DNA of 64,000 nucleotides from Ramlibacter pinisoli (GTDB lineage Bacteria; Pseudomonadota; Gammaproteobacteria; Burkholderiales; Burkholderiaceae_C), in NCBI RefSeq assembly GCF_009758015.1, contig NZ_WSEL01000009.1, positions 1,116,001 to 1,180,000 on the forward strand. The letters are read 5' to 3'. Made by a program: the position numbers and the translations under genes. This document shows, piece by piece, positions 37,807-55,112 of the stretch (positions within the stretch are counted from its first letter, which is position 1; each line of letters starts with the position of its first letter). The notes beneath the pieces were generated by a model. The model was not told the DNA's origin and did not search any database. It worked only from the letters and a program-made list of their open reading frames with translations.

Positions 37807-38532
37807 TCAAAGGCCGGCGCCGAGGAACTGCTGCAGTTCCGCCGTCTGCGGCCGGTCGAACATGCCGGGGCCGCCCTGCTCCCAGACGCGGCCCTTGTGC
37901 ATGAACAGCGTGGTGTGCGCGACGTTGCGCGCGAAAGCCATCTCGTGGGTGACCAGCACCATGGTCATCCCGCCGGCCGCCAGGTCGGCCATCACCTTGA
38001 GGACCTCGCCCGTGAGCTGGGGGTCGAGGGCCGACGTCACTTCGTCGAACAGCATCACCTGCGGCTCCATGGCCAGGGAGCGCGCAATGGCCACCCGCTG
38101 CTGCTGGCCGCCCGAGAGTTGCTCGGGGTAGCTTGCGGCCTTGTCGGACAGGCCCACCTGCGCCAGCACGCGGGCGGTCAGCTCGTTCGCTTCGGCGCGC
38201 GTCTTGCCCTTGCTGTGCCGCGGCGCCAGGGCAATGTTCTCGGCCGCCGTGAGGTGCGGGAACAGGTTGTAGCTCTGGAAGACGATGCCCACGTCGCGGC
38301 GCAGCTGGCGCAGATCGAGCCTGGGATCGCTCACCTCGTGCCCGCACACCTGGATGCGGCCCTGGTCGATGCGCTCCAGGCGGTCGATGCAACGCAGCGC
38401 CGTGCTCTTGCCGGAGCCGCTGCGGCCGATGATGGCGAACACTTCGCCCTTGTTGACGCTGAAGCTCACGCCGTCGAGCACCTTCAGCGCCCCGAAACTC
38501 TTGTGCACGTTGTCGAGCAGGATGATGCTCAT
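37807..38532 (-). CDS. ABC transporter ATP-binding protein (GlnQ/HisP type)
   Basis: 241 residues. Walker A IIGRSGSGKSTALRCIDRLE, Q-loop VFQSYNLFPHLTAAEN, signature LSGGQQQRVAIARSLAMEPQ, Walker B VMLFDEVTSALDPQLT and switch VTHEMAF. The ATG at 38532 overlaps the upstream permease stop (ATGA), a sign of stoichiometric expression with the permeases. Confidence 0.95.
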   Translation of the reverse strand: MSIILLDNVHKSFGALKVLDGVSFSVNKGEVFAIIGRSGSGKSTALRCIDRLERIDQGRIQVCGHEVSDPRLDLRQLRRDVGIVFQSYNLFPHLTAAENIALAPRHSKGKTRAEANELTARVLAQVGLSDKAASYPEQLSGGQQQRVAIARSLAMEPQVMLFDEVTSALDPQLTGEVLKVMADLAAGGMTMVLVTHEMAFARNVAHTTLFMHKGRVWEQGGPGMFDRPQTAELQQFLGAGL

Positions 38533-39200
38533 GCCGTGGCAACCTCCACGCGATGGGCCACCAGCAGGCGGCGTTCCAGTTGCCGGCTCCACCACGACAG
38601 CGGGAAGCACAGCAGGAAGTAGAGACCCGCCACCAGCATGTAGACCAGGAACGGCTCGAACAGCGAGTTGTTGACCACCTGGCCGGCGCGGGCCAGCTCG
38701 ACGAAGCCGACCACCGAAGCCAGCGACGTGTTCTTGACGATCTGCACCATGAAGCCCACCGTGGGCGGGGTCGCGATGCGCAGCGCCTGCGGCAGCACCA
38801 CCAGCCCCATCCGCTGGACCCTCGACAGCGCCAGGCACTCGGCGGCCTCCCACTGGGTGCGCGGCACGGCCTGGATGCAGCCGCGCCAGATCTCACCGAT
38901 GTAGGCGCTGACGTAGATCGTCATCGAGATGCCTGCCGCCACCAGCGCCGGCAGGCTCAGGCCGGCGATGCTGAGGCCGAAGTACGACAGGAACATCAGG
39001 ATCAGCAGCGGCGTGCCCTGCACCAATTGCACATAGGCCGTCGAGAGCCAGCGCAGCGCCCGGACGGGCGAGATGCGGCACAGCGCCACGATGAATCCGA
39101 GCAGCCCGCCGCCGGCGAACGCGATCAGCGACAGCACCAGGGTCCAGCCGGCCCCTTGCAGCAGGAACACCAGGTGGTTCGCGTTGAAGGCGATGGTCAC
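38529..39200 (-). CDS. ABC transporter permease (HisM/GlnP type)
   Basis: 223 residues, about five membrane helices. Cytoplasmic EAA loop near WEAAECLALSRVQRMGLVVL couples to the ATPase. The GTG start at 39200 overlaps the stop of the first permease (GTGA). Neighbours show it forms the membrane pair with the 39197 gene product. Confidence 0.92.
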   Translation of the reverse strand: MTIAFNANHLVFLLQGAGWTLVLSLIAFAGGGLLGFIVALCRISPVRALRWLSTAYVQLVQGTPLLILMFLSYFGLSIAGLSLPALVAAGISMTIYVSAYIGEIWRGCIQAVPRTQWEAAECLALSRVQRMGLVVLPQALRIATPPTVGFMVQIVKNTSLASVVGFVELARAGQVVNNSLFEPFLVYMLVAGLYFLLCFPLSWWSRQLERRLLVAHRVEVATA

Positions 39201-39880
39201 AGCGGCGTTCCCAGCTTGCGGCGGCGGGTGAACAGCGCCTGGCCGGTGACCCAGAAGGCACCGCGCATCAGGAGCGACAACAGCAGGTAGAACACCGCCA
39301 CCACAGCATAGGTTTCGAAGGAGCGGAAGGTGTCGGACTGCACCCGGTTCGCGATGGCCGTGAGCTCTTCCGCCGAGATCTGCGACGTGATGGACGTGGC
39401 CAGCATGAGCAGCACGAACTGGCTGGTGAGCGCGGGATAGACCCGCTCCATCGCCGGTCGCAGGATGACGTGCCAGTAGATCTGCGCGCGGGAGAGCGCC
39501 AGGCATTCCGCGGCCTCGATCTGGCTCCTGTGGATCGACTCGATGCCGGCGCGCATGATCTCGGTGGTGTAGGCCCCCACGTTGATGACCATCGCCAGCA
39601 CCGCGGCAATGAAGGCCGGCACCTTCAGCCCGATGCTGGCCAGCCCGAAGTACACCAGGAAGATCTGCACCAGCAGGGGCGTGTTGCGGATGGCCTCCAC
39701 GTAGACCGCACAGGAGCGCGCCACCAGCCGGTTGCTGCTGCCGCGCCCGATGGCGCACAACGTGCCGATGACCAGGCCGAGCAGCGTCGCGGCCACCGAC
39801 AACTTGACGGTCAGCCAGGCGCCGTGCAGGAACAGCGGCCATTGGGCCAGGACGCTGGTGAAATCGAACTTGTAGGTCAC
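39197..39880 (-). CDS. ABC transporter permease (HisQ/GlnP type)
   Basis: 227 residues, about five membrane helices (WLTVKLSVAATLLGLVIGTL and others), EAA loop IEAAECLALSRAQIYWHVIL, and the NTPLLVQIFLVYFGL helix. GTG start at 39880 overlaps the ribokinase stop (GTGA). Second membrane half of the transporter. Confidence 0.92.
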   Translation of the reverse strand: MTYKFDFTSVLAQWPLFLHGAWLTVKLSVAATLLGLVIGTLCAIGRGSSNRLVARSCAVYVEAIRNTPLLVQIFLVYFGLASIGLKVPAFIAAVLAMVINVGAYTTEIMRAGIESIHRSQIEAAECLALSRAQIYWHVILRPAMERVYPALTSQFVLLMLATSITSQISAEELTAIANRVQSDTFRSFETYAVVAVFYLLLSLLMRGAFWVTGQALFTRRRKLGTPL

Positions 39881-40836
39881 TGCTCGGCCGCCGGCGGGCA
39901 TGCAAGGGCGCAGGGCGGTGCCACCTGCTGCACTTGTTCGAGTTCGTGCAGCCGCGGGATCGAGGCCTGGGCGCCCGCCCGGGTGACGCAGAGCGTGGCA
40001 GCCTGGATCCCCCGCATGACCGCGGAGTCGGTGGAATGGCCGGCGGCTCGCGCGGCGCACATCGCGCCGATGAACGTGTCGCCCGCGGCCGTGGTGTCGA
40101 CCGTCTTGACCGCAATCGCGCCGAAGTGTCGGCAGCCGTCCTCATCCGCGACGACCACCCCCTGGCTGCCCAAGGTCACGATCGCCGTCGAGGGCCCGCG
40201 CCGGCGGATCGCGGTCGCAGCCTTCGCCGCGCTGGCCGGATCCACCACGGGCAGGCCCGCCAGATCCGCGGCCTCGATCTCGTTCATCACGATGATGTCG
40301 ACCAGCGACCAGAGCTCTTCGGGCAGCTTGCAGACGGGTGCCGGGTTCAGCACCACGATCGCCTTCCTCGCCCGCATGGCCTTGGCCGCACGAACGACCT
40401 CGGGCATCGGAACTTCGCACTGCAGGAGCAGGAATTGCCCGGCGACCGCTCGTCCCAGGACTTCGTGGTCCGCCTTCAGCAACTCGTTGGCGCCGGGAAC
40501 GAGGGTGATGCGGTTCTCGCCCTCCGCATCGACCATGACGACGGCGACACCGGTGCTGTCGCCCGCGGCGCGGACATGGGTCACGTCGATCCCATCCGCG
40601 GCAAGCGCGTTGCGCAAGGCCGTGCCGAAGTCGTCCTGCCCCACGCATCCCACCATGGCGACGCTTGCGCCTTGGCGGGCGCAAGCGACGGCCTGGTTCG
40701 CACCCTTGCCGCCGGGGTTCGCCATGAACCCTGCCCCCCGCAGCGTCTCGCCGCCGCGCGGCGCTCTCTCCACACGGACCATGAGGTCCATGTTCAGGCT
40801 GCCGAAGACGACGATCAGGGGATCGGCTCGCGTCAT
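39877..40836 (-). CDS. rbsK: Ribokinase (PfkB-family carbohydrate kinase)
   Basis: 319 residues. PfkB signature 1 region FMANPGGKGANQAVACARQG (residues ~38-57) and signature 2 VDTTAAGDTFIGAMCAARAA with the catalytic Asp of AGDTF; NEIEAADLAGL in between. Phosphorylates ribose or a related sugar in the cytoplasm. In this operon it is paired with an RpiB-type isomerase and an ABC importer not of the RbsABC kind, so the true sugar may not be ribose. Confidence 0.88.
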   Translation of the reverse strand: MTRADPLIVVFGSLNMDLMVRVERAPRGGETLRGAGFMANPGGKGANQAVACARQGASVAMVGCVGQDDFGTALRNALAADGIDVTHVRAAGDSTGVAVVMVDAEGENRITLVPGANELLKADHEVLGRAVAGQFLLLQCEVPMPEVVRAAKAMRARKAIVVLNPAPVCKLPEELWSLVDIIVMNEIEAADLAGLPVVDPASAAKAATAIRRRGPSTAIVTLGSQGVVVADEDGCRHFGAIAVKTVDTTAAGDTFIGAMCAARAAGHSTDSAVMRGIQAATLCVTRAGAQASIPRLHELEQVQQVAPPCALACPPAAEQ

Positions 40837-40848
40837 GGGATCGGCTTG

Positions 40849-41622
40849 TCAGGAGACCCGCTGCGTCGGGCGCGGCCGGCTGCGCCCTTGCGCATCCGCG
40901 ACCGCAGCGTCTTCACGCAGGTTCGCGCCGATCTCGAAGTGCTCGGTCAGCAGCGCATCCGCTTCGGACGGGTTCTTGCGCCGGATCGCCTGCAGGATGG
41001 CCTCGTGGTGGCCGATGAGATAGGTGTCCACATCGGGGACGTTGGCAATCACCTGCCTGCGTTCCATGTGCGACTCCTGCAGCAGCTTGGCGACCGCGGC
41101 GTAGACGCTGGAGAGCGCCGGCGAGTGGGACGCCTCCACGATCATCGTGTGGAAGTGAAAGTCCGCCTCGCCGCCCCGCACGGGATCGGCGATGGTTTCC
41201 TTGATGGCCTGCAGGGCCTGCGACAGCCTTTCCAGGTCCGGCGCGAGGGCGCGTGAGCACGCCAGGCGGATCGCCTGCCGCTCGATCGCGATGCGCGCCT
41301 GCATCACGTCATCGACCGCGCCCGCCTGCTGGGCCAGGACCAGGCTGAAGTAGTCGGCCAGGGCCGTGAAGTTCGGCTCCCGGACAACCGTTCCGTAGCC
41401 GCGCCTGATCTCGACCGCACCCAGCGTGGACAACGCCGTCAGGGCCTCGCGGATGACCGGACGGCTGACGCCGAGTGCGCTGGCGAGGTCACGTTCCGGC
41501 AACAGCCGGTCGCCGGTCTTCAGGCGGCCCGTCACCAGCTGGTCGCGAAGGAACGACAGGACGCGGTCGTATCCGTCCTGGTTCGTGTCGTCCTGCTGGA
41601 CGATCTTGATCGGCTTGCTCAT
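40849..41622 (-). CDS. FadR/GntR-family transcriptional regulator
   Basis: 257 residues. GntR winged helix (GDRLLPERDLASALGVSRPV, IREALTALSTLGAVEIRRGY) and an all-helical FCD domain with metal/ligand residues (FHFHTMIVEASHSPALSSVY, HHEAILQAIRR). Sits between rpiB and rbsK. The dyad TGGT-AAG-ACCA upstream of rpiB (42251-42261) has the form of FadR/PdhR-type operators, so autoregulation of the whole operon is likely. Confidence 0.92.
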   Translation of the reverse strand: MSKPIKIVQQDDTNQDGYDRVLSFLRDQLVTGRLKTGDRLLPERDLASALGVSRPVIREALTALSTLGAVEIRRGYGTVVREPNFTALADYFSLVLAQQAGAVDDVMQARIAIERQAIRLACSRALAPDLERLSQALQAIKETIADPVRGGEADFHFHTMIVEASHSPALSSVYAAVAKLLQESHMERRQVIANVPDVDTYLIGHHEAILQAIRRKNPSEADALLTEHFEIGANLREDAAVADAQGRSRPRPTQRVS

Positions 41623-41653
41623 CGCGTGACCGGCTCCCCAGCAGGGGCGGCGC

Positions 41654-42178
41654 CTACCTGGTTCCTTGCGTCAAGGCCCGTGCCTCTTCACGCTCGAGGT
41701 CGCCGAGCTTCTCCACGCGACGGCGGAAATGCTCCTCCGTGCTGAACTCCGCTGCCAGGAATGTTTCGATGACGTCCCGGGCCACCTGCGGCCCGATGAT
41801 CCATGCGCCGATGCACAGGACATTGACGTCGTCATGCTCCACGGCCTGGCGGGCCACGAACGTGTCGTGGCACACCGCGGCACGGATGCCAGGCATCTTG
41901 TTGGCCGCGATGCAGGCACCCGCACCGGTGCCGCAGACGAGGATGACCCGCTTGACCTTTCCCTCACGAATGAGGGAGATTGCCTTGCGCGTGACATCCG
42001 GAAAGTCGACGGGCGAGTCCGAGTTCGCCCCGACGTCGACGACTTCATCGCAGTGTTGCGCGAGGACACCGGAAACGAACCCCTTCAGGAGGAACCCGGC
42101 GTGGTCGTTCGCGAGGCCGATCGCCGGCCAGCGCGGCACCGCGATCGCGTGCGGTGAGCGTGCTTCGTCTCTGGACAT
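41654..42178 (-). CDS. RpiB/LacAB-family sugar-phosphate isomerase
   Basis: 174 residues. AIGLANDHAGFLLKGFVSGV (Asp-His pair near residue 25), and the active-site loop VCGTGAGACIAANKMPGIRA with the anion-binding GTG. Isomerises an aldose/ketose phosphate in the cytoplasm; ribose-5-phosphate or a tetrose-phosphate fit the family. AGGAGAGG precedes the ATG. First gene of the operon, with about 25 C-terminal residues more than compact RpiB. Confidence 0.88.
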   Translation of the reverse strand: MSRDEARSPHAIAVPRWPAIGLANDHAGFLLKGFVSGVLAQHCDEVVDVGANSDSPVDFPDVTRKAISLIREGKVKRVILVCGTGAGACIAANKMPGIRAAVCHDTFVARQAVEHDDVNVLCIGAWIIGPQVARDVIETFLAAEFSTEEHFRRRVEKLGDLEREEARALTQGTR

Positions 42179-42798: not shown

Positions 42799-45375
42799 TC
42801 AGTCGCCGGCAACGCGCCGGGCCAGGTGGGCGAGTGCCTCTTCCACCTGGTCCACCAGCACCAGGCACAGGTCTCCGGGTTGCAGCCGCGCGAGTGCGGC
42901 GTCGATGGCGACGAACTCGCCGCGGATTTCCTCGACATGCGTGGTGCGGCTCGCGCCTTGCAGCCCCTCGCGCAGCAGCGCCATCACCTCGCCGTCGGCG
43001 CGCCCGCGCTGGGCCGCGTCCTGGTACAGGAGGACGTCGTCGAAGGCGGCGCCCAGGATCAACGTCTGGTCGCGGATGTCCTGGTCGCGCCGGTCGCCGG
43101 CGGCGCTGATGACCACCGAGCGGCGTTTCGCCGGCATCGCATCGACCGCGGCCACCAGCGCGCGCATCGCGTCGGGGTTGTGACCATAGTCGGCGATCAC
43201 GGTCGCGCCCTGGTAGTCCATCACGTTGAAGCGAGCGGGCGCGTTGTGCGCGTCGTTGACGAAAGTCGCGAGGCCGTTGCGGATGGCGTCGAACGGCAGG
43301 CCCGCGCCCCAGGCGGCGGCCACCGCCGCCATGACGTTCTCGACCTGGAAGCCGATCGTGCCGTTGCGGGTGATCGGGATGGCGGCCAGGGGGATGTGCG
43401 CGCGCTGGCTGCCCTCCGCGGCGACCACGGAGCCTCCGTCCAGCGCCCGGTCGATGTAGACCTTGCGCCCGCCCTGGGCGCGATGCGCCACCATGACGGC
43501 GTTGTGGCGGTCGGCGGCGAAGAAGATCACCTTGCCCGGGCAGGCGTCGGCCATCGCCGCGACGATGGGATCGGCCGCGTTCAGCACCGCATAGCCTTCC
43601 TTGGGCGTCACGTTCTGCACGATCACGCGCTTGAGGACGGCCAGGTCCTCCACGGTGGTGATGTAGTTCAGCCCCAGGTGGTCCCCGTCGCCCACATTGG
43701 TGACAACTGCCACCTGGCAGTGGTCGAAGCCCAGGCCTTCGCGCAGGAGGCCGCCGCGCGCGGTCTCGAACACCGCCGCCTCGACGTCGGGATGCATCAG
43801 CACGCTGCGCGCGCTCTTCGGCCCGCTGCAGTCGCCGGAGTCGATCTGCCGGCCGTCGACGTAGACGCCATCGGTGTTGGTCATGCCCACCGTCAGTCCG
43901 CTGCTGGCGAACAGGTGCGCGATCAGGCGCGCCGTGGTCGTCTTGCCGTTGGTACCGGTGACCGCGACCACCGGGATGCGGCCGTCGTGGCCGGGTTCGA
44001 ACAGGTGGTGGATGATGGCCTCGCCGACGTGGCGCGGCCGGCCATAGGACGGCGACAGGTGCATGCGCAGCCCCGGCGCGGCGTTGACCTCGACGATGCC
44101 GCCGCCCTGCTCCTCCAGGGGTCTGAGCACGCTCTCGCACACCATGTCGACACCGCACACGTGCAGGCCCACCATCTGCGCCGCGGCGATCGCGCGCTCG
44201 GCGACCTCGGGGTGCACGTCGTCGGTCACGTCGGTGGCGGTGCCGCCGGTGGACAGGTTCGCGTTGTGGCGCATCCGCACGCGCTGGCCGCGCGCCGGCA
44301 CGCTGCCGATCGTCAGGCCCTGCTCGGCGAGCAGTGCGATGGCGATGTCGTCGATGCGGATCTTGGTCAGCGAGGTGGCGTGGCCATCGCCGCGGCGCGG
44401 GTCGGCGTTGACCTTGGCGACCAGTTGCTCCACCGTGTGCTCGCCGTCTCCCAGCACCAGCGGCGGCTCGCGCCGCGCGGCAGCGACCAGTCGGTCGCCC
44501 ACCACCAGCAGGCGGTAGTCGCTGCCGGGCAGGAACTTCTCGACCATCACCTCGCCGATCTCGGCCGCAGCCTTGTAGGCCAGCGCCATCGCGTCGCGGC
44601 TGGTGAGGTTGACCGTGATGCCCTTGCCCTGGTTGCCGTCCCGGGGCTTGACCACCACGGGCAGGCCGACCTCGAGCGCGGCGGCCCAGGCGTCGACCTC
44701 GTCGGCCACCGGCCGGCCGATGGGCACCGGCACGCCGGCGGCGTGCAACAGCTGCTTGGTCAGCTCCTTGTCCTGCGCGATCGACTCGGACACCGCGCTG
44801 GTCTGGTCGACCTCGGCGGCCCAGATGCGGCGCTGGTGCTTGCCCCAGCCGAACTGCACCAGGCTGCCCTCGGTCAGGCGCCGCCACGGGATGCCGCGCG
44901 CCGCCCCCGCCTGCACGATGGAGCCCGTGCTGGGGCCCAGGCGCACGTCCTCGTCGGTGTCGCGCAGACGGGCGATCGCCGCGTCGACGTCGAACCCGGC
45001 CTCGGGGTCCAGCGCGGCCGTGATCAGCTGCTGCGCGAGCTCGAAGGCCAGGCGGCCGACGGCCTCCTCGCAGTATTCGACGACGACCTGGTAGACGTGG
45101 GGTTCGACCGTGGCCTGCGTGCGGCTGAAGCTGACCGGGCAGCCGGCTTCTTCCTGCAGCGCGAGTGCCGCGGCCTCGAGCACATGGGCGAGCGACACCG
45201 CGCCGCCGGTGCGCAAGGCGCCGATGGCCGGAAACAGCTTGCGCAGCCGGGCCTCGAAGCCGGGGCGCCCGGTCATCGCGGTTTCGTCGGCCGCGCACGA
45301 CACGACGGCCTCGATGGCCGTGTGGCGGCTCCACAGGTTGGGCCCGCGCAGCGCGCGAAGGCGGGAAATGTCCAT
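42799..45375 (-). CDS. cphA: Cyanophycin synthetase CphA
   Basis: 858 residues, normal for CphA. It polymerises Asp and Arg into multi-L-arginyl-poly-L-aspartate in the cytoplasm. Order: N-terminal domain (~1-160), ATP-grasp domain adding one amino acid (VVVKPRDGNQGKGITVNLTS near residue 240), then a Mur-ligase domain with intact P-loop VTGTNGKTTTARLIAHL near residue 473 and a complete Mur C-terminal domain (NVMDYQGATVIADYGHNPDA). It starts 13 bases after the cphA' stop, so the two are co-transcribed. Confidence 0.95.
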   Translation of the reverse strand: MDISRLRALRGPNLWSRHTAIEAVVSCAADETAMTGRPGFEARLRKLFPAIGALRTGGAVSLAHVLEAAALALQEEAGCPVSFSRTQATVEPHVYQVVVEYCEEAVGRLAFELAQQLITAALDPEAGFDVDAAIARLRDTDEDVRLGPSTGSIVQAGAARGIPWRRLTEGSLVQFGWGKHQRRIWAAEVDQTSAVSESIAQDKELTKQLLHAAGVPVPIGRPVADEVDAWAAALEVGLPVVVKPRDGNQGKGITVNLTSRDAMALAYKAAAEIGEVMVEKFLPGSDYRLLVVGDRLVAAARREPPLVLGDGEHTVEQLVAKVNADPRRGDGHATSLTKIRIDDIAIALLAEQGLTIGSVPARGQRVRMRHNANLSTGGTATDVTDDVHPEVAERAIAAAQMVGLHVCGVDMVCESVLRPLEEQGGGIVEVNAAPGLRMHLSPSYGRPRHVGEAIIHHLFEPGHDGRIPVVAVTGTNGKTTTARLIAHLFASSGLTVGMTNTDGVYVDGRQIDSGDCSGPKSARSVLMHPDVEAAVFETARGGLLREGLGFDHCQVAVVTNVGDGDHLGLNYITTVEDLAVLKRVIVQNVTPKEGYAVLNAADPIVAAMADACPGKVIFFAADRHNAVMVAHRAQGGRKVYIDRALDGGSVVAAEGSQRAHIPLAAIPITRNGTIGFQVENVMAAVAAAWGAGLPFDAIRNGLATFVNDAHNAPARFNVMDYQGATVIADYGHNPDAMRALVAAVDAMPAKRRSVVISAAGDRRDQDIRDQTLILGAAFDDVLLYQDAAQRGRADGEVMALLREGLQGASRTTHVEEIRGEFVAIDAALARLQPGDLCLVLVDQVEEALAHLARRVAGD

Positions 45376-45388
45376 GGCTAGCTCAAAC

Positions 45389-47584
45389 TCAGGCGGGCTG
45401 CGCGGAAGGGATGCCGTGGGCGTCGAAGGTCTCGATGCCGGCGATGATCAGGTCGGGCGGGATCTCCAGCGCCCAGGCGGCGGCGATCACGGCGAGCAGG
45501 GACTCGTCGGACAGGCCACCACGCGCCAGGCGCGCCGCGGGCGGCAGCCGCGTCTCGGCGCTGCCGGTGGCCAGCACGGGGCTGCCGTCCTGCAGGGTGA
45601 CGGCGCGACCGCCGCGCGCGCCGCTGCGGCGGTGCGCCAGCAGCGCCGGCACCTGCGGATCGGTGGCGTACAGGATCACCTCGCCGTCGCACAAGGTCCC
45701 CAGCGCGGCGACGCGTTCGTCGGCGGCGTTGAGCACCGCGACCCCGTCGTCCAGCACCACGTCGACCTGGGTACGCAGCACCTTGGCCATCTGCTCGATC
45801 GATTGCACGTCGAACTCGGCCAGCGTGCCGGCGCCGTCGAAATCCGTGACCACGCCGACCGTGCAGCGGTCGTAGGCCAGGCCGTCGCGCAGCATGGCGC
45901 GGGCATCGTTCTCGAACACCGCGGCCTGCACGTTGCGATTGACCAGCAGGCGGTGCGCCACGTCCCAGCGGCGCGCGTCGCCGGCCGCCAGCCGGCGGCG
46001 GTCGAGGTACAGGCCGTCGGCGCAGGCCAGGCCCACGCGCTGGCCGCGCAGCTGGGCGAGCCAGCCGACCAGCCGCGCGATGCGGGTGGTGTCGCGCGTG
46101 CCGGCGATGCCGACGATGGGGATGCGGCCGGCGTGCGCATGGTCGCCATTGCCGGGGAACAGCGCGTCGACGATGGCCCGGCCCACCGGGCGCGGCTTGC
46201 CGACGGCGGGTTTCAGGTGCGCCAGCAGGCCGGGGCCGGCGTTGACCTCGACGATCGCACCCCCCTGTTCGTGCAGCGGGCGGCCGATGTCCTGGGCCAC
46301 GAGGTCGACGCCGGCGATGTCCAGGCCGACGATGCGCGCGGCCAGTGCGACCACGTGCTCGACCTCGGGGTGGACCTGGTCGGTGCAGTCGATCGCGACG
46401 TTGCCATTGCGCTGGATCAGCACCTTGCGCCCCGCCTCGGGCACGGCCGCAGGCGAGAGGCCTTGCCGCGCCAGGTCGCCCAGGACGGACTCGTCTTCCT
46501 CGAGCACCAGGCGGTTCAGCGGGTGGTCCTCGCTGACGCCGCGGCGCGGGTCGCTGTTGATCTGCGCGTCGACCAGCTGGGCCACGGTGCAGCGGCCGTC
46601 GCCCGTGACCCAGGCGGTTTCGCCGCGGGCGGCCGCCACCACCTTGTCGCCGAGCACCAGCAGGCGGTGCTCGTCGCCGGAGACGTAGCGCTCGACCAGC
46701 ACCTCGCTGCCATGGCGCGCGGCGACCTCGAAGGCGGCCTCGACGTCCGCCCGGGTGCGCAGGTCCAGCATGACGCCGCGGCCGTGGTTGCCGTCGCTGG
46801 GCTTCACCACCACCGGCAGGCCGATGTCCTGCGCCGCCTCCCAGGCCTCGGCTGGCGATCCGGCGGCGCGGCCTTCCGGCACCGGCACGCCGCAGGCGGC
46901 GATCAGGCGCTTGGTCAGGTCCTTGTCGCGCGCGATGCCCTGGGCGATGGCGCTGGTGTGGTCGGTCTGTGCGGTCCAGATGCGGCGCTGGCGCGCGCCG
47001 TGCCCCAGCTGCACCAGGTTGCCGTCGTTCAGGCGGATGTGCGGAATGTGCCGGTCGGTCGCCGCGGCGACGATGGCCGCGGTGCTGGGGCCGAGGTAGG
47101 AGTCGTCGACCTGCTCGCGCACCTGCGCGACCGCGGCCGCGACATCGAAGGATTCGTCGTTGATCGCCGCCATCAGCAGGCGATGGCCCTGCGCCAGCGC
47201 GCTGCGCGCGACCTGCTCGTCGCGGGCACGGAACACCATGCGGTAGACGCCGGGTCGCGAGGTGCTGCGCGTCTGACCGAAGCCGGTGGGCATGCCGGCC
47301 AGGTTCAGCAGCTCGATGACCACGTGCTCCAGCACGTGGCCGGCCCAGGTGCCCTCCTGCAGGCGCTGCAGGAAGCCGCCGCGCTCCCCGACGCCGCAGT
47401 GGTGCTCGATCAGCGCCGGCAGCAGCGCGGTGAGGCGCTCATTGAAGCCGGGCAGCAGGTTCGAGGGCCAGTCTTCCAGTTCGCCGAGGTCCAGCCAGAC
47501 CTCGAGCACCGGGCGGTAGGTCCACACGTTGGGGCCGCGCAGGTAGTTGATGCGCAGCAGTTGGATGTCGTTCTTCTTGCTCAT
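45389..47584 (-). CDS. cphA': Second cyanophycin synthetase CphA' with degenerate, truncated Mur domain
   Basis: 731 residues. N-terminal and ATP-grasp domains look intact (VVVKPSDGNHGRGVMLDLRT near residue 260). The Mur-ligase central domain is present, but its P-loop reads GIAGTRDTTRIARL near residue 493: GTNGKT has become GTRDTT and the nucleotide-binding lysine is gone. The protein ends at GIETFDAHGIPSAQPA, where CphA continues with ~147 residues of Mur C-terminal domain. So the second half is probably inactive as a ligase. Paired cphA'/cphA genes are known in betaproteobacteria; the role of the partner is less clear. First gene of the leftward pair. Confidence 0.9.
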   Translation of the reverse strand: MSKKNDIQLLRINYLRGPNVWTYRPVLEVWLDLGELEDWPSNLLPGFNERLTALLPALIEHHCGVGERGGFLQRLQEGTWAGHVLEHVVIELLNLAGMPTGFGQTRSTSRPGVYRMVFRARDEQVARSALAQGHRLLMAAINDESFDVAAAVAQVREQVDDSYLGPSTAAIVAAATDRHIPHIRLNDGNLVQLGHGARQRRIWTAQTDHTSAIAQGIARDKDLTKRLIAACGVPVPEGRAAGSPAEAWEAAQDIGLPVVVKPSDGNHGRGVMLDLRTRADVEAAFEVAARHGSEVLVERYVSGDEHRLLVLGDKVVAAARGETAWVTGDGRCTVAQLVDAQINSDPRRGVSEDHPLNRLVLEEDESVLGDLARQGLSPAAVPEAGRKVLIQRNGNVAIDCTDQVHPEVEHVVALAARIVGLDIAGVDLVAQDIGRPLHEQGGAIVEVNAGPGLLAHLKPAVGKPRPVGRAIVDALFPGNGDHAHAGRIPIVGIAGTRDTTRIARLVGWLAQLRGQRVGLACADGLYLDRRRLAAGDARRWDVAHRLLVNRNVQAAVFENDARAMLRDGLAYDRCTVGVVTDFDGAGTLAEFDVQSIEQMAKVLRTQVDVVLDDGVAVLNAADERVAALGTLCDGEVILYATDPQVPALLAHRRSGARGGRAVTLQDGSPVLATGSAETRLPPAARLARGGLSDESLLAVIAAAWALEIPPDLIIAGIETFDAHGIPSAQPA

Positions 47585-47708
47585 GAGCGGAGCGCGGCCG
47601 GGTGATCAGCCGGGGGATCAATTGTGCGCCTGATGAGACGGGGGCCCGATTGGGCGAAAATCCGCGCCCAGGCAGGGCGCGAGGCCCCGGCTTCCCAACG
47701 AGCGTCGA

Positions 47709-49949
47709 ATGCAACCTACTTCTCCAGCCGCCACAGTGCCGGGCCTGCCACCGGACTGGCGACAGGCGCTCGCCGACAGGCTAGCCAGCAACGAGAACGT
47801 CCTGGCGACGCTTCAGGTTGACATCAGCCCGGCCATGAATTTCCACGACGGCGCGCTGGCCATGAGCGATCGCCGCCTGCTGGCCTGGGACGCAGGCCGC
47901 TGGTCGGAGTGGCCGTTGGCCGCAGGCCTGCAGCTGCGCCAGGGCGACCACGCCGGCATCGGCACCCTGGAACTGCTGGACGACCAGGGGCGGCTCGCCC
48001 TGTGGCGCTTCACGCTGGCCCAGCAGCGCGCGGTGCTGGACTTCGTCGCCCGCTTCGAGCGCCTGCAGTCGGGCAAGCCCGCTCCGGGGGAAGCCACTGA
48101 CGAGGACGAGGCCGACGAGGCGGACACCCGCCCCCCTTCGACCTGGGTGCTGCTGCGCCTGGGCCGTTTCGCCCGCCCCTACCGCAAGCAGCTCGCGATC
48201 GGGTTCGGACTGACGCTCGCGTCCACGGCCGCGACGCTCGTGCCGCCCTACCTGACCATCCCGCTGATGGACAAGGTGCTGATCCCGTTCCAGAACGGGC
48301 AGCGCATCGACCCGGGCTTCGTGTTGCTGCTGCTGTCGGGCCTGCTGGGTTCGGCGCTGCTGGCCTGGAGCCTGGGCTGGGCGCGGACCTGGCTGCTGGC
48401 CCTGGTGTCCGAGCGCATCGCGGCCGACCTGCGCACCACGGCCTTCGAGCACCTGCTGCAACTGTCGCTTGACTACTTCGGTGCCAAGCGCACCGGCGAC
48501 CTGGTCGCGCGGATCGGCTCCGAGACCGACCGCATCTCGGTCTTCCTGTCGCTGCACGCCCTGGACTTCGCCACCGACGTGCTGATGTTCGCCATGACCG
48601 CGGCGATCCTCTTCTCGATCAATCCCTGGCTGGCATTGGTGACGCTGCTGCCGCTGCCGTTCATCGCGTGGATGATCCACGTGGTGCGCGATCGCCTGCG
48701 CACCGGCTTCGAGAAGATCGACCGCGTCTGGGGCGACGTGACCAGCGTGCTGGCCGATACCATCCCCGGCATCCGCGTGGTCAAGGCCTTCGCGCAGGAG
48801 CGGCGCGAGGCGCAGCGCTTCCGCGAGGCCAACCAGGCGAACCTCGCCGTCAATGACAAGCTCAACAAGACCTGGAGCCTGTTCTCGCCCACGGTGTCGC
48901 TGCTGACCGACGTGGGCCTGCTGGTGGTCTGGGCCTTCGGCATCTGGCTGGTCAGCCGCAGCGAGATCACGGTGGGCGTGCTGACGGCGTTCATCGCCTA
49001 CATCGGGCGCTTCTACACGCGGCTCGATTCGATGAGCCGCATCGTCTCGGTCACGCAGAAGGCGGCCGCCGGCGCCAAGCGCATCTTCGACATCCTGGAC
49101 CATGTGTCCAACGTGCCCGAGCCGGCGAATCCGGTGCAGATCGGAACGCTGGAGGGCGCGATCGAGATGCGGGGCCTGGGCTTTCGCTATGGCAACCGCA
49201 GCGTGATCCGCGACCTCGACCTCGCGATCCGCCCCGGCGAGATGATCGGCCTGGTGGGCCACAGCGGCTCGGGCAAGAGCACGCTGGTCAACCTGATCTG
49301 CCGCTTCTACGACGTGAGCGACGGCGCGATCCGGGTCGACGGCACCGACATCCGCCGCTTCGGCGTGGCCGACTACCGGCGCCACATCGGCCTGGTGCTG
49401 CAGGAGCCCTTCCTGTTCTTCGGCACCATCGCCGAGAACATCGCCTATGGCCGGCCGGACGCGACCCGGGCCGAGATCGTGGCCGCGGCGCGCGCCGCGC
49501 ACGCGCACGAGTTCATCCTGCGCCTGCCGCTGGGCTACGACTCGATGGTGGGCGAGCGCGGCCAGGGCCTGTCCGGCGGCGAACGCCAGCGCATCTCGAT
49601 CGCCCGCGCGCTGCTGATCGACCCGCGCATCCTGATCCTCGACGAGGCCACCTCCAGCGTCGACACCGAGACCGAAAAGGAGATCCAGAAGGCGCTGGAC
49701 AACCTGGTGCAGGGGCGCACCACGATCGCCATCGCGCACCGGCTGTCGACCTTGCGCCGCGCCGACCGGCTGGTGGTGATGGACCGGGGCCGGGTGGTCG
49801 AGGTGGGCCCGCACGACGAGCTGATCGCCCGGCAGGGCGCCTATTGGCGGCTGTACGAAGCGCAGGCGCGCCAGGTCGACGAGGAAGACAGTGGCGAGGA
49901 CCTGCGCCTGCCGGCGCCCGCGCATGCGGCGCATCCCGCGGGGCAATGA
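47709..49949 (+). CDS. ABC exporter linked to cyanophycin metabolism, with N-terminal extra domain
   Basis: 746 residues, half-transporter with both membrane and ATPase domains. Residues ~1-150 form a cytoplasmic extra domain ([20 protein letters not shown]) with a DEDEADEAD acidic linker; ~160-460 a six-helix exporter core; ~480-720 the ATPase (Walker [41 protein letters not shown]). Divergent from cphA'/cphA by 124 bases and followed by DUF1854. This gene pair is repeatedly found beside cyanophycin genes; its cargo is unknown. Confidence 0.9.
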
Positions 49950-50410
49950 CGATGGTCCGACTCGAACGCAATCGCTTTGGTCGCCTGGTGCTGACGCTGG
50001 CCGACGGCACGGTGCACGAGGGCGTCGTGCCGGTGCGGGCCTTCCCGCTGGCCGCGCCTGAGGAGGGCGTGTCGCTGGTGGGCGCCGAGGGGCGCGAGCT
50101 CGCCTGGGTGCCTCACCTGGATGAGCTGCAGCCCCAGGACCGTGCGCTGATCGACGACGAACTGGCAGGCCGCGAGTTCGTGCCGACGGTGCAGCGCATC
50201 GAGGCTGTGTCCAGCTTCTCGACGCCCAGCACGTGGAGCGTGGTGACGGACCGCGGGTCGACGCGCTTCGTGCTGAAAGGCGAGGAGGACATCCGGCAGC
50301 TGGGCAATGGGGCGCTGCTGATTGCGAGCGCGGAGGGGATCAACTTCCGGATTGCGGATCGGTGGGGATTGGACCGGAAGTCGCGGGGGGTGTTGGAGAG
50401 GTTCCTGTAG
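49946..50410 (+). CDS. DUF1854 protein linked to cyanophycin metabolism
   Basis: 154 residues: [80 protein letters not shown] and [21 protein letters not shown] small beta-rich cytoplasmic protein of unknown function. Its ATG overlaps the exporter's stop (ATGA), so the two are probably made together and may form a complex. Confidence 0.9.
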
Positions 50411-50478: not shown

Positions 50479-51405
50479 ATGCGCCGACGCGACCTGCTCT
50501 TCTCCTCGCTTCTCACTGGGACAACGATGCGCCTGGCCGCACAAACGCCCACCCGGGGTCGGCTCGTCATCGTCGGCGGCGCCGAGGACCGCGTGCAGGA
50601 CCGATTGATCCTGCGGCGCTTCCTCCAGCATGCAGGCGGACCGCAGGCCCGCGTCCGGTTGCTGACCGCGGCCAGCTCCGTTCCACTGGTGGTCGCCGCG
50701 AGCTACCGGCAGGCATTCGCCGAGCTCGGCGCGGGCGACTGTGAACTGTTGCCGCTCCTCGAGCGCGACGCTGCGTTCCTGCCCGAAGTCGTGCAGGCCA
50801 TCCTGGACGCGGATGCCATCTTCATCAGCGGCGGCAACCAGTCGCGACTGATGGACGTCCTGCGCGAGACGCCTGCGATGGCCGCCCTGCACCACGCCCA
50901 TCGGCACCTCGGGCGCTGCATCGGTGGCACGAGCGCCGGGGCGGCGGCAATGTCGCGCCACATGATCGTGCAAGGCCCTGCCATGCGCCATCCTCGCAAG
51001 GACGTGGTCGGCACGGGCGTCGGGCTCGGCCTCCTGCCGGCGGCGATCGTCGACCAGCACTTCTCGCAACGGGGACGGCTCGCGCGCCTGCTCTCGGCGC
51101 TCGCCCAGCGCCCCGACCTGCTCGGCGTGGGGGTCGACGAGGACACCGCCCTGGTCGTCGAGAGCCAGGAGGCGATCGAGATCATCGGCAGCGGCGCCGT
51201 CACGCTCGTGGACGCCTCTTCCGCGCACACCAACCTCGCCGAGCTCGAGCCGGAGAGCCAGATCGAGATGCTGGGTCTGCAGGTGCACACCCTGCCGGCG
51301 GGCCGCCGCTATCCGGTGCGACCCGCGCGGCAGAACGCGACGTGGCCGCCGGGGCTGCGGGAAGCGGTGCAGCGACTCGTCGAGCAGGTGCCGCTGCCGT
51401 CCTGA
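50479..51405 (+). CDS. cphB: Cyanophycinase, possibly exported
   Basis: 308 residues. Class-I-glutaminase-like peptidase fold: RGRLVIVGGAEDRVQDRLIL, AIFISGGNQSRLMDVLRETP and the nucleophile region CIGGTSAGAAAMSRHM with the catalytic Ser; DQHFSQRGRLARLLSAL carries the His. It cuts cyanophycin to beta-Asp-Arg. From the ATG at 50479 the protein opens MRRRDLLFSSLLTGTTMRLA, a Tat-like leader broken by an Arg; an ATG at 50527 (GGGA 6 bases upstream) would give a cytoplasmic form. Which start is used is open. Confidence 0.9.
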   Translation: MRRRDLLFSSLLTGTTMRLAAQTPTRGRLVIVGGAEDRVQDRLILRRFLQHAGGPQARVRLLTAASSVPLVVAASYRQAFAELGAGDCELLPLLERDAAFLPEVVQAILDADAIFISGGNQSRLMDVLRETPAMAALHHAHRHLGRCIGGTSAGAAAMSRHMIVQGPAMRHPRKDVVGTGVGLGLLPAAIVDQHFSQRGRLARLLSALAQRPDLLGVGVDEDTALVVESQEAIEIIGSGAVTLVDASSAHTNLAELEPESQIEMLGLQVHTLPAGRRYPVRPARQNATWPPGLREAVQRLVEQVPLPS

Positions 51406-51540: not shown

Positions 51541-52944
51541 TCAACGCTGCGGCTTGGTGTTCACGGGGATGCACAGTCCTGCCGTCAGAAGGGCGAGCAG
51601 GACGTGGCTGACGTACAGCGGCACGAAGCTGGCGTGCGTGAGGTTACCGTGACCAAGCAGGAGGACGGTGACCGCGACGCCCATCACCGATCCGATCTGG
51701 CGCGTGGCCTGGTTCACGGCACTGCCGACGGCGAACTGGCCGGGCGGCAAGCGGTTCACGGCGGCAGCCGAGAGCGAGGGCAAGACCATGCCAATGCTGG
51801 AGCCGCTCAGGATCAGCCCGGGCAGCCAATGCGTGAGGTACGCCGGCTCCGCTCCCGGCACGAGCAGGAACCACGATCCGGCGCACGCGTAGAGAAGTCC
51901 ACCGCCGACCAGGAACGGACGATGGCCGATCCTGCCTGCCAGCCGCCCGGACAGGATCGCGAAGGGGATCACCAGCAAGGGTCCCGGCGTGATGGCCAGG
52001 CCGGCTGTGCGCAAGGGGTAGTGCCACACCTGGGTCAGGTAGAAGAAGAAGGCGAAGAACATCATCGAGAACGCGATGCCGAAGCTCAGGGTCGCGACGT
52101 TCGTGAAGGCGTACGTCCGATTCCTGAACAGGCCCAGGTCGACCAGCGGTGCGGGCGCGGTGCGAGCCCACAGGACGAACAGGACGAGCGCCGCCACACC
52201 GGCGACCGCCGCCGCGCCGAGTTCCGCGGCGGTCCACCGCGGCGACTCCATCTGCACGATGCTCAAGGCGATGGCGCCGACGCCCAGGATCAGCAATGCC
52301 ATGCCGACCCCATCCACCGGCCGCTGCCGTTCGGGCTTTCTGGCTTCCTGCAGCAATGCGGCGCCGCGCCACAAGGACAGGGCCCCCAACGGCAGGTTCA
52401 GGTAGAAGGCCCAGCGCCACCCCAGCGTTTCGACCACCAGCGACCCCAGGCTGGGCCCGACCGCAGCAGCCAGGCCGCCGACAGCACCCCACAGGCTCAC
52501 CGTCACCGCCCGCTTGTGCTGCGGGAAGGCGTCGAGCACGAGAGACAGGGAGGCCGGCGTCAGCAGCGCGGCGCCCACGGCCTGCAGGACACGGGCGGCA
52601 ACGAGCCAAGCCACGCTCCCGGCCAGGCCGCACGCAGCCGAAGCGACGAGAAAGAGGACCACGCCCAGGAGGAACACCTTCTTGCGGCCGTGCGTGTCGG
52701 CCACTCCGCCGGCGGGGATCAGCATCGCGGCATAGACCACCGTGTAGCCGTTCAGGACCCACGACATGTCGGCTGCCGAGGTGCCGGGGAAGCTGGCGCC
52801 GATGGCCCCGAAAGCGGCGAACAGCAGCGTCGAGTCAAGCGACACCAGGAACACGGCAATGCTGGAGATCCAGAAGATCGTCCACGGGGACAAGGTGGGC
52901 GCCGCCAGTGTCCCGGCCGTAGCGTGCGCGGCGGGGCGTGTCAT
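51541..52944 (-). CDS. MFS multidrug transporter (DHA2/EmrB-like)
   Basis: 467 residues, about 14 hydrophobic segments. MFS motif region GGVADTHGRKKVFLLGVVLF (motif A) and the DHA2-type LNGYTVVYAAMLIPAGGVAD, LLTPASLSLVLDAFPQHKRA. A proton-driven exporter of drugs or other small molecules by family. Its ATG overlaps the azoreductase stop (ATGA), linking efflux with detoxification. Confidence 0.9.
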   Translation of the reverse strand: MTRPAAHATAGTLAAPTLSPWTIFWISSIAVFLVSLDSTLLFAAFGAIGASFPGTSAADMSWVLNGYTVVYAAMLIPAGGVADTHGRKKVFLLGVVLFLVASAACGLAGSVAWLVAARVLQAVGAALLTPASLSLVLDAFPQHKRAVTVSLWGAVGGLAAAVGPSLGSLVVETLGWRWAFYLNLPLGALSLWRGAALLQEARKPERQRPVDGVGMALLILGVGAIALSIVQMESPRWTAAELGAAAVAGVAALVLFVLWARTAPAPLVDLGLFRNRTYAFTNVATLSFGIAFSMMFFAFFFYLTQVWHYPLRTAGLAITPGPLLVIPFAILSGRLAGRIGHRPFLVGGGLLYACAGSWFLLVPGAEPAYLTHWLPGLILSGSSIGMVLPSLSAAAVNRLPPGQFAVGSAVNQATRQIGSVMGVAVTVLLLGHGNLTHASFVPLYVSHVLLALLTAGLCIPVNTKPQR

Positions 52945-53561
52945 TGCGTGACTCCCGACCACGCCGCGAAGTGCTCCTGCAGTGAACGGCCGACTCTCGC
53001 CCTGGCCTCGGCCGCCGCCGCGGGACCGAACGCCATGCCTTCCACGGAAAAGAACGTGACGTCGTGCAGGCCGATGATGCCCAGGATGGCTCGCAGGTAG
53101 GGCGTCAGGAAGTCGGGCTGGCGCGTGCCCTCCCCCGAGAACCGGCCGCCCGAGGACACGGCGACCAGCACCGGACGGTCGCGCAGCAAGCCAACCTTGC
53201 CCAGCCTGCTCACGTCGAAGGTGCGCCGCACGCGCACGACATGGTCGATCCACAGCTTCAGCGCAGCGGGGACGGTGAAGTTGTGCATCGGCGTGCCGAT
53301 GACGACGACGTCGGCGCTTTCCAGCTCCCGGATCAGGACTTCGGATCGCGATGCCGTCCCGCTGCTGGAAACATCGGCCGACCCGTGCTGGGACTGCGCG
53401 TAGTCCCCATCGATGCCCAGCAGGGTACCGTCACCGGCATGACGTTCGACGACCGTTGCCGCCGGATCGGCCTGCACCAGGTGATGGACGATGTCCTGGG
53501 CGAGCCGATGGCTCTCGGAGGCAGGGCCACGAGGGCTGCAGCTGACATGGAGGATGTTCAT
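52941..53561 (-). CDS. azoR: FMN-dependent NADH-azoreductase
   Basis: 206 residues, flavodoxin-like fold: MNILHVSCSPRGPASESHRL, the loop IGTPMHNFTVPAALKLWIDH that binds FMN, and AVSSGGRFSGEGTR. Reduces azo compounds and quinones. Divergent from a MocR-type regulator with two direct operator repeats between, and translationally coupled to an MFS exporter, so quinone/azo stress may induce the pair. Confidence 0.9.
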   Translation of the reverse strand: MNILHVSCSPRGPASESHRLAQDIVHHLVQADPAATVVERHAGDGTLLGIDGDYAQSQHGSADVSSSGTASRSEVLIRELESADVVVIGTPMHNFTVPAALKLWIDHVVRVRRTFDVSRLGKVGLLRDRPVLVAVSSGGRFSGEGTRQPDFLTPYLRAILGIIGLHDVTFFSVEGMAFGPAAAAEARARVGRSLQEHFAAWSGVTQ

Positions 53562-53615
53562 CGTTGAGTCTTCCGGTTGGGGATTGCGGGTGAGGCATTG
53601 ACTCTACGAAGCGCA

Positions 53616-53664
53616 TGGTCCACGACCAAGATCCAAGAAGCGAGATTGCGATTGGTCCATGATC
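53616..53664. promoter_or_regulatory. Two direct repeats, probable MocR operator
   Basis: TGGTCCACGACC (53616-53627) and TGGTCCATGATC (53653-53664) are direct repeats 37 bases apart in the azoR/mocR gap. MocR/PdxR-type regulators typically bind such direct repeats. The second copy ends 20 bases before the regulator's ATG. Confidence 0.6.
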
Positions 53665-53684
53665 GCGGCAGATCGCGCCACCCC

Positions 53685-55112
53685 ATGAACGTCAAGAGCA
53701 CCACTGTCCCGCCGCTGGACCCCAATGCAGCCGAGCCGTACTACCGGCAGATCTACGAGCGGTTCCGTGGCGCCATCAACCATGGAGTCCTCGAGCCGGG
53801 CGACCGGATTCCCTCGGCCCGGGCGCTGGCGCAGGAGCTGGGCCTGGCCAGAGGCACGATCGACGCGGCCTATTCGCTCCTGGCAGCAGAGGGGTACATC
53901 CAGGCACGTGGCCAAGCCGGCACGGTGGTGACGCCGGGGCTCAAGCCAAGAGCGCCTGTCGCCACCCCGTCGGCACGCGTCCAGGTCAGCGAACCACCCA
54001 GCTTCCGGCCCGACTCGGTGCTGCCCTTTCAGATGGGCCTGCCCGCGCTGGATTCGTTCCCGCGCAAGATCTGGGCGCGCCTGGGCGCGCGGTGCGTCCG
54101 CGCGATGCAACCTTCCGACATGGCCCACCCTCCGGTGTACGGCTTGCCCGGACTCCGGACGCAGATCGCCGGCTACCTGCAGGTGTCGCGGGGCATCGAC
54201 TGCTCTCCTTCGCAGGTCTTCGTGACGTCGGGGTACCGCCACACGATCGGGTTGATCGCGCACGCGCTGCTCAAGGCGGGAGACCGGGTCTGGCTGGAAG
54301 ACCCTGGCTACCCGCCGACCCGGCAACTGCTGGGCCACCTGAACATCGCGGCTGTCCCGGTACCCGTCGACAACGAGGGCATGGTCATTCACCAGGCAGT
54401 GAAGGCGGCGCCGCGGGCGCGCGCTGCCGTGGTCACGCCGGCGCACCAGAGCCCGCTGTGCGTGTCCTTGTCGCTGCGGCGGCGCCTGGCGCTGCTGGAC
54501 TGGGCGACGCGCAACCAGTCCTTGATCATCGAAGACGACTACGACGGCGAGTACCGCTATGCGAGCCGTCCCCTTCCTGCGCTCAAGAGCCTCGACCGTG
54601 ACGGACGCGTCCTCTACGCGGGCACGTTCAGCAAGGTGCTGTTTCCCGGCATCCGGCTCGCATACGTCGTCGTGCCCGAAGCGCTGGTGGAGCGGTTCGG
54701 CCAGATCAGCCAGGCCTTCGCAGGCAGCTGTCCGGAGCTGACGCAATCGATCGTCACGGCCTTCCTGGAGGAAGGCCACTTCGCGCGCCACATCCAACGC
54801 ATGCGCAAGCTTTACGCCGAACGCCGGGAAGCGACAGCGGCCGGCCTCAGCGGCGTGCTGGGAAAGTTCATGCGCGTCGATCCGCAGCCGGGAGGCATGC
54901 ACCTGGTCTTGCGGCTGCAGGGCCAACGCTCGGATCGCCGGCTGGTCGCGCGCATGCTGGCAGAAGGCCTGTATGGCGAGGCACTGACCGACTGGACGGC
55001 GCAAGGCGACGGGCCGCCGGCGGTGCTTCTCAACTTCACGAACATCGACTCCCAGCGGACGGCGGAGAGGCACGCAACGCGCATCCTGGAACTGGTTCGT
55101 GGGTCGCGCTAA
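53685..55112 (+). CDS. MocR-type (GntR + aminotransferase) PLP-dependent regulator
   Basis: 475 residues. N-terminal GntR winged helix (PYYRQIYERFRGAINHGVLE, LGLARGTIDAAYSLLAAEG) and a fold-type-I aminotransferase domain (SLIIEDDYDGEYRYASRPLP; PLP lysine in YAGTFSKVLFPGIRLAYVVV). The start at 53685 (MNVKSTTVPP) gives the family N-terminus. Divergent from azoR; controls it and perhaps the AhpD/SMR genes after it (inference). Confidence 0.9.
   Translation: MNVKSTTVPPLDPNAAEPYYRQIYERFRGAINHGVLEPGDRIPSARALAQELGLARGTIDAAYSLLAAEGYIQARGQAGTVVTPGLKPRAPVATPSARVQVSEPPSFRPDSVLPFQMGLPALDSFPRKIWARLGARCVRAMQPSDMAHPPVYGLPGLRTQIAGYLQVSRGIDCSPSQVFVTSGYRHTIGLIAHALLKAGDRVWLEDPGYPPTRQLLGHLNIAAVPVPVDNEGMVIHQAVKAAPRARAAVVTPAHQSPLCVSLSLRRRLALLDWATRNQSLIIEDDYDGEYRYASRPLPALKSLDRDGRVLYAGTFSKVLFPGIRLAYVVVPEALVERFGQISQAFAGSCPELTQSIVTAFLEEGHFARHIQRMRKLYAERREATAAGLSGVLGKFMRVDPQPGGMHLVLRLQGQRSDRRLVARMLAEGLYGEALTDWTAQGDGPPAVLLNFTNIDSQRTAERHATRILELVRGSR

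Follow-up and report, generated by a model that had tools for sequence, protein, structure and literature searches.

Introduction

Why should a gene for an ATP-binding cassette (ABC) exporter lie beside genes for cyanophycin, a polymer whose accepted role is that of a purely internal store? This question is raised by a locus of Ramlibacter pinisoli that is carried on a 64,000-nucleotide stretch of DNA (the window) from an assembly of 5,505,957 bases in 11 contigs. Genes for an ABC half-transporter and for a protein of the DUF1854 family diverge here from two genes of the cyanophycin synthetase type, cphA′ and cphA, and are followed by a cyanophycinase gene (Table 1). An initial annotation had placed the exporter and DUF1854 genes, with an ATGA overlap of their open reading frames (ORFs), opposite cyanophycin genes; these placements were confirmed, and the divergent neighbors prove to be two cphA-type genes on the minus strand, 124 bp away. 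Left undiscussed in that annotation was the second of them, cphA′, which is the most informative part of the locus.

Both protein families and the gene cluster are already known. NCBI gives NF052233 the name 'cyanophycin metabolism-associated ABC transporter' and NF052234 the name 'cyanophycin metabolism-associated DUF1854 family protein', so the association with cyanophycin is known by name, with neither a function nor a mechanism attached. The word DUF1854 was found in no paper of the open-access literature searched. A 'Group 1' cluster of activated-sludge bacteria comprises two cphA copies and an ABC transporter and lacks cphB (PMC10687191), a composition shared by the system described below; the available passages of that paper differ in naming neither DUF1854 nor a division of active sites, and in suggesting a composite transposon. 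Adjacent genes termed 'CphA1' and 'CphA2' are likewise present without a cyanophycinase in Sideroxydans, according to its description (PMC5178258). In a census of 903 beta-proteobacterial genomes with CphA1, a recognizable cyanophycinase was present in 2.8%, which was termed unanticipated (PMC10206079).

Herein we describe comparative analyses whose best explanation as a whole, rated at slightly below an even chance, is that the exporter and the DUF1854 protein serve as the membrane component of a split system for cyanophycin in Burkholderiales.

Results

Hydrolase and ligase residues are apportioned between two CphA-type proteins

Published CphA1 with an N-domain primer site carries both activities in one protein (PMC9262961), and its three domains (N, G and M) are also those of CphA and CphA′. 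Sets of 54 CphA and 56 CphA′ proteins were compared, wherein the gene pieces of locus L112 and the L164/L169 duplicate were not counted separately for CphA; the L167 CphA is cut by a contig end inside the N domain, and the L166 CphA also starts at a contig end. All genome samples used in this study were of Pseudomonadota (150 Burkholderiales, 299 phylum-wide, a set of named genomes, and 59 of the genus Ramlibacter).

In the alignment, the hydrolase motif Cx19HxxEH is present in all 56 CphA′ and in none of the 54 CphA. The motif Cys is absent in every CphA that is readable there, HxxEH without the Cys persists in two (L138 and L150), and 53-54 of 54 have a deletion of the stretch that holds F67 and R70. 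Mutation of H57, C59, R70, H79 or E82 lowered or abolished the primer-independent activity of CphA1 (PMC9262961). Each of these residues is kept in 56/56 CphA′, whereas CphA keeps them in 0, 0, 0, 46 and 35 of 54, respectively. The residue set expected of an N-domain endo-cyanophycinase (Cx19HxxEH plus H57 and R70) is therefore complete in every CphA′ of the set. Cx19HxxEH also occurs in the CphA′ of 80/80 loci from named genomes, a count that is biased because the search patterns favor motif-bearing CphA′.

The ligase residues follow the opposite pattern. Among the four TeCphA1 residues scored for aspartate recognition (R323, N394, S396 and R458), R323, S396 and R458 are kept in 54/54 CphA and lost in 56/56 CphA′, where R323 is replaced by Gly in 55, S396 is deleted in 56 and R458 is replaced by Leu in 53. 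The Lys of the M-domain P-loop is retained in every CphA that has residues at this place and in 17/56 CphA′, and the third M-lobe column scored is a gap in 48/56 CphA′. Other positions are kept in CphA′, namely R309 and the ATP/Mg residues (56/56) and H267 (54/56); position 267 is Gln in 52/54 CphA and in 3/7 reference CphA1 proteins of the same alignment. The window proteins conform to this pattern, in that CphA carries R309, R323, N394, S396, R458 and the M P-loop Lys, as does a catalytic CphA1 in its G and M domains, and lacks the N-domain Cx19HxxEH of CphA1, while CphA′ reads GTRDTTR at the place of the CphA1 P-loop. What CphA1 combines thus appears, from sequence, to be apportioned to two proteins, with the whole Cx19HxxEH in CphA′ and all tested ligase residues in CphA. 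It seems likely that the hydrolase and ligase functions are divided between CphA′ and CphA in the same way.

Conservation argues against the possibility that cphA′ is a decaying pseudogene, and this idea was rejected. Near-invariant columns (threshold 97%) number 11 in CphA versus 37 in CphA′ for the N domain, 105 versus 89 for the G domain, and 116 versus 15 for the M domain, where the CphA′ count is lowered by truncation. FastTree trees recover CphA (54) and CphA′ (56) as monophyletic groups that cluster with the CphA of locus L139, apart from both the outgroup (classic CphA1 from four further Burkholderiales loci) and two CphA proteins of a second locus in genome G294. That second locus (L144, G294:C1:5336000-5350000) adds two CphA genes and a cyanophycinase to the split system of the same genome.

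Several unusual loci bear on the history of the two proteins. Five CphA′ proteins that approach full length at 866-883 amino acids (L116, L129, L131, L134 and L159) have an intact M P-loop and have already lost the aspartate pocket, which points to loss of the pocket ahead of loss of the M domain. L139 (G185:C9:1-11782), from outside Burkholderiales, has ABC and DUF1854 genes beside a single CphA with all three active sites, and this CphA is sister to CphA′ in the trees. It possibly represents a pre-split state. We give this locus little weight because its genome has a listed contamination of 8%, its contig breaks off within cphA, and it holds the sole DUF1854 among 48 genomes of its class. 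At L112 (G308:C67:23500-42500), cphA is present as two ORFs of 469 and 448 amino acids, for which gene fission or an assembly error are possible causes.

The exporter and DUF1854 genes accompany cphA genes

Among the 150 Burkholderiales genomes, PF08909 (DUF1854) is present in 50, and NF052233 exceeds its cut-off in the same 50. All 50 have cphA-type genes versus 5/100 genomes that lack DUF1854, a linkage far beyond chance in a Fisher test that ignores shared ancestry. TIGR02068 exceeds its cut-off in 53/150, which are 48 of the 50 DUF1854 genomes plus G335, G375, G414, G401 and G409. The two DUF1854 genomes that fall under this cut-off have a cphA split in two ORFs (G308) or running off its contig (G325). 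As for the five genomes without DUF1854, the contig of G409 stops inside the ABC gene, and the other four encode a CphA1 of 1041-1128 bits together with a cyanophycinase over cut-off.

Similar results were obtained with the other samples. DUF1854 is present in 16 of the 299 phylum-wide genomes (15 inside Burkholderiales, one outside), all of which are among the 20 with a CphA over cut-off; the other four of these 20 lie outside Burkholderiales. The scan of named genomes, which overlaps the other genome samples at least twice (L211/G225 and L262/G196), yielded 80 loci, and all four genes are present in 54/54 of those with full flanks. Over all 80, ABC was seen in 73 and DUF1854 in 67; in four of the other seven, where ABC did not reach the threshold, upstream sequence is scant or the ABC gene is cut by the contig end. 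Given the NCBIfam naming and the near-complete linkage in our samples, we rejected the notion that the association of the exporter with cphA is due to chance or is wholly unknown. As a general rule, the composite transposon suggested for the 'Group 1' cluster (PMC10687191) is likewise unsupported, since neighbor families recur in no more than 6/55 loci, although insertion sequence elements were not searched by name. Separately, clustered partial CphA-like ATP-grasp matches were noted at G422:C3:78309-95841, in a genome without DUF1854.

The exporter carries a PH-like domain and is paired with DUF1854

The two window proteins exceed the curated cut-offs for NF052233 and NF052234 by a wide margin (Table 1). 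The ABC protein matches PF00664 at residues 163-435 and PF00005 at residues 501-649, both over cut-off, and its Walker A, signature, Walker B and H-loop strings are also present in 51-55 of 56 ABC proteins. Thus, by sequence, it has the domains and motifs of a type IV ABC exporter. Mean conservation in the family is 0.836 for the transmembrane domain (TMD) and 0.860 for the nucleotide-binding domain (NBD). Like MsbA-type exporters, the protein is a TMD-NBD half-transporter with intact ATPase motifs, but its MsbA score (TIGR02203, 458.3 bits) is below the cut-off of 602, and its family differs in having a PH-like domain and a zinc ribbon in front (an acidic linker in the window protein) and a DUF1854 partner.

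The unusual N-terminal domain pointed out in the initial annotation is real. It has no Pfam match at E 0.001, and its fold is predicted with confidence (mean predicted local distance difference test, or pLDDT, values of 93-98 per block over residues 21-120). Residues 28-122 are predicted to form seven strands and a capping C-terminal helix, as expected for a PH-like domain. Among Pfam bacterial PH families, bPH_3 matches 3/52 members weakly (best E 0.033). The acidic linker that had been described behind this domain exists in the window protein, but is atypical, because a zinc-ribbon pattern (CxxC...CxxC) occupies this place in 47/57 compared ABC proteins and is absent from 10.

That the exporter and the DUF1854 protein act as one unit, as proposed earlier, is borne out by their co-occurrence in the same 50 of 150 genomes, by their location on one strand in 55/55 loci, and by two metagenomic proteins in which they are fused (P0242 and P0243). 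The four-base overlap of the two ORFs recurs in 19/55 loci, and the pair is divergent from cphA′ in 51/53. The two proteins probably form a complex. Outside the samples, PF08909 exceeds its cut-off in a control genome, that of the archaeon Sulfolobus acidocaldarius, which indicates that the family is not restricted to Pseudomonadota.

A cyanophycinase with a Tat-like leader is confined to a few genomes

With its start taken as 50479, the window cyanophycinase is a protein of 308 amino acids including a leader. TIGR02069 exceeds its cut-off in 5/59 Ramlibacter genomes; the gene is directly behind DUF1854 in three (the window, G437 and G484, where it is spread over more than one frame) and on another contig in two (G458 and G481). 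All five copies share the leader pattern MRRR(D/N)(L/F)L..SSLL(T/A)G....LAAQ, which we read as a putative signal of the twin-arginine translocation (Tat) type. In comparison, the cyanophycinases of classic loci L140, L141 and L143 start near the catalytic domain and lack this leader. The earlier suggestion of a possibly exported enzyme is therefore strengthened, in that the Ramlibacter copies look exported from their sequences.

The enzyme is, however, not a general part of the system as had been supposed. TIGR02069 exceeds its cut-off in 5/50 Burkholderiales genomes with DUF1854 versus 4/4 that have a classic CphA1 without a DUF1854 locus. Of the loci compared at order level, that of the window is the single one to include a cyanophycinase, and none is present in the named loci (0/80). 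A cyanophycinase in the general system was rejected because no match of at least 70 bits was found beside the DUF1854 loci fetched from the order and phylum samples, with flanks of ~5 kb or less and some contigs ending earlier.

Organization of the locus and neighboring genes

Coordinates are collected in Table 1. In protein comparisons, the nearest relatives that carry a name are from Ramlibacter. The two cphA-type genes lie on the minus strand, with the end of cphA′ 13 bp ahead of cphA. Further along the minus strand past cphA, window positions 38529-42178 encode a BPD_transp_1 permease and a PfkB kinase by profile matches and, by eye, a FadR/GntR-like regulator and an RpiB-like isomerase; these genes look like a separate sugar-related cluster. 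Past the cyanophycinase, positions 51541-55112 encode a major facilitator superfamily (MFS) transporter and a GntR-aminotransferase (MocR-like) regulator.

Table 1. Features of the R. pinisoli cyanophycin locus, in window coordinates.
Feature	Position	Strand	Evidence
cphA (858 aa)	42799..45375	-	NF010623 1224 bits; TIGR02068 964 bits vs cut-off 850
M-domain P-loop GTNGKTT, CphA residues 474-480	43936..43956	-	Alignment to 7lg5/7wac P-loop
cphA′ (731 aa)	45389..47584	-	NF010623 1011 bits; TIGR02068 691 bits, under cut-off 850
Cx19HxxEH motif of CphA′ (C63, H83, E86, H87)	47324..47398	-	Alignment to 7lg5
cphA′/ABC divergent intergenic region, 124 bp	47585..47708	.	Sequence
ABC half-transporter, 746 aa	47709..49949	+	NF052233 1344.1 bits vs cut-off 880
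PH-like N-terminal domain, ABC residues ~28-122	47790..48074	+	Predicted fold
Acidic linker, ABC residues 123-142	48075..48134	+	Place of zinc ribbon in 47/57 proteins
DUF1854 protein, 154 aa	49946..50410	+	PF08909 159 bits; NF052234 221.5 bits vs cut-off 150
Cyanophycinase, peptidase family S51, 308 aa	50479..51405	+	TIGR02069 257.6 bits vs cut-off 126.6; PF03575
Tat-like leader MRRRDLLFSSLLTGTTMRLAAQ of cyanophycinase	50479..50544	+	Pattern common to 5/5 Ramlibacter copies

Discussion

A proposed mechanism for the split system

We propose that CphA would elongate cyanophycin and would be unable to cut it, and that CphA′ would cut, having lost aspartate addition and mostly lost arginine addition. 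Precedent for an activity supplied in trans comes from experiments in which a G/M-dead CphA1, or the isolated N domain, rendered a primer-dependent CphA1 primer-independent (PMC9262961). CphA′ resembles a natural version of this G/M-dead protein, and by analogy with that biochemistry it may act as a hydrolase in trans. The PH-like domain, the zinc ribbon and DUF1854 would dock the ABC homodimer to the polymer or to CphA/CphA′, partners that we infer for the PH-like domain and DUF1854, and the homodimer would expel short chains from the cytoplasm at the expense of ATP. Where a cyanophycinase gene has been added behind DUF1854, as in some Ramlibacter, the enzyme with its Tat-like leader would then degrade exported chains in the periplasm. 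Short cyanophycin chains are offered tentatively as the cargo, and the pump would carry them outward. This direction is favored by the type of ABC protein, by the Tat-like cyanophycinase behind the pair in three Ramlibacter, and by the fact that cyanophycin was not observed in wild-type Cupriavidus necator despite its two synthetase homologues (PMC11362209).

Several observations weigh against this proposal. Of the 50 pump-bearing Burkholderiales genomes, 45 have no cyanophycinase over cut-off. The silence of C. necator may simply reflect unexpressed genes; the two cphA copies were expressed evenly and highly in one reactor study of Accumulibacter (PMC10687191), whereas cphA expression in a full-scale plant was very low (PMC12455942). 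The N domain is reported to act slowly, and cyanophycin in granules to stay largely stable where it is present (PMC9262961); CphA′ may therefore supply primers without mobilizing the store. N394 of the aspartate pocket is retained in 51/56 CphA′. Moreover, the G domain of CphA′ is strongly conserved and its ATP-site residues are retained, so the protein may itself act as a ligase. Linkage is also imperfect, as evident by three loci from metagenome-assembled genomes (L213, L221 and L222) that have cphA′ and cphA with no ABC match in 3.4-3.9 kb upstream, and by G432, whose ABC-DUF1854 pair lies ~0.8 Mb from its cphA genes, with both retained.

The retained ATP/Mg residues, R309 (56/56) and H267 (54/56) of CphA′ could instead indicate a CphA2-like ligase that joins beta-Asp-Arg, such that the module would serve in dipeptide recycling and not in the production and export of short chains. 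As in most CphA′, the M-domain P-loop has been lost from CphA2 along with the greater part of its last M lobe (PMC9427784), and Arg323 would be unnecessary for a dipeptide nucleophile. However, CphA2 is described as lacking the N-domain motif (PMC9262961) that is present in 56/56 CphA′, which speaks against equating the two. CphA′ also shares one clade with Burkholderiales CphA, and a cyanophycinase that could supply dipeptides is lacking in the majority of these genomes. Taken together, we regard dipeptide recycling as very improbable.

The same scarcity of cyanophycinase bears on the chance that the pump moves other cargo linked to cyanophycin metabolism (arginine, beta-Asp-Arg, a different peptide or a lipid), for instance to vent an excess. 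Most genomes lack the enzyme that would yield the dipeptide, and the export of free arginine would need no cphA′ partner. On the other hand, the next-best NCBIfam matches of the ABC protein are MsbA-type and other exporters, all under their cut-offs among those inspected. In addition, the dipeptide could be hard to use for R. pinisoli, because its genome has no match to PF01112 (IaaA) and an IadA match of just 21 bits, in a search that did not include M14-type dipeptide hydrolases. A cargo of this kind is in our judgment unlikely. Transport could also be dispensed with altogether if the pair is a membrane platform that tethers CphA/CphA′ or granules to the inner membrane through its PH-like domain, zinc ribbon and DUF1854, with ATP being hydrolyzed to remodel the assembly. 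In favor of this, PH-like domains and zinc ribbons typically serve in binding, the pair is linked almost completely to the synthetases, and most genomes need no exported partner. Yet TMD conservation almost equals that of the NBD and the ATPase motifs are intact, both of which would be expected if a definite substrate is transported, and the zinc ribbon is missing from 10/57 members. We therefore consider a platform without transport distinctly unlikely, and export of short chains remains the reading we prefer.

The missing cyanophycinase

Cyanophycinase is absent from nearly all beta-proteobacteria with cyanophycin synthetase, which has left an old puzzle as to how the polymer is handled. The complementary active-site pattern names candidates for this task, which are CphA′ and the ABC-DUF1854 pair. 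On the basis of its residues, CphA′ is a candidate source of some or all of the 'missing' cyanophycinase activity and a candidate primer maker; no proposal of a cyanophycinase role for it was found in the open-access subset of the literature searched. Relative to the literature searched, the division of active sites, the PH-like and zinc-ribbon anatomy, the fusions, and the Tat-like cyanophycinase behind DUF1854 look new. A question that is two decades old becomes directly testable with purified proteins and single deletions.

A still broader picture, which we put forward as doubtful, is that in many beta-proteobacteria cyanophycin is not solely, or not at all, stored inside the cell, and that a non-cutting polymerase and a mainly cutting paralogue make short chains that ABC-DUF1854 secretes. 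CphA′ would then be both the missing cyanophycinase and the supplier of chains, and the secreted chains might act as a matrix, as a buffer or as nitrogen shared among cells. If chains are indeed exported, the accepted view of cyanophycin as a purely internal store would need revision, and recombinant production could make use of a natural primer maker and exporter.

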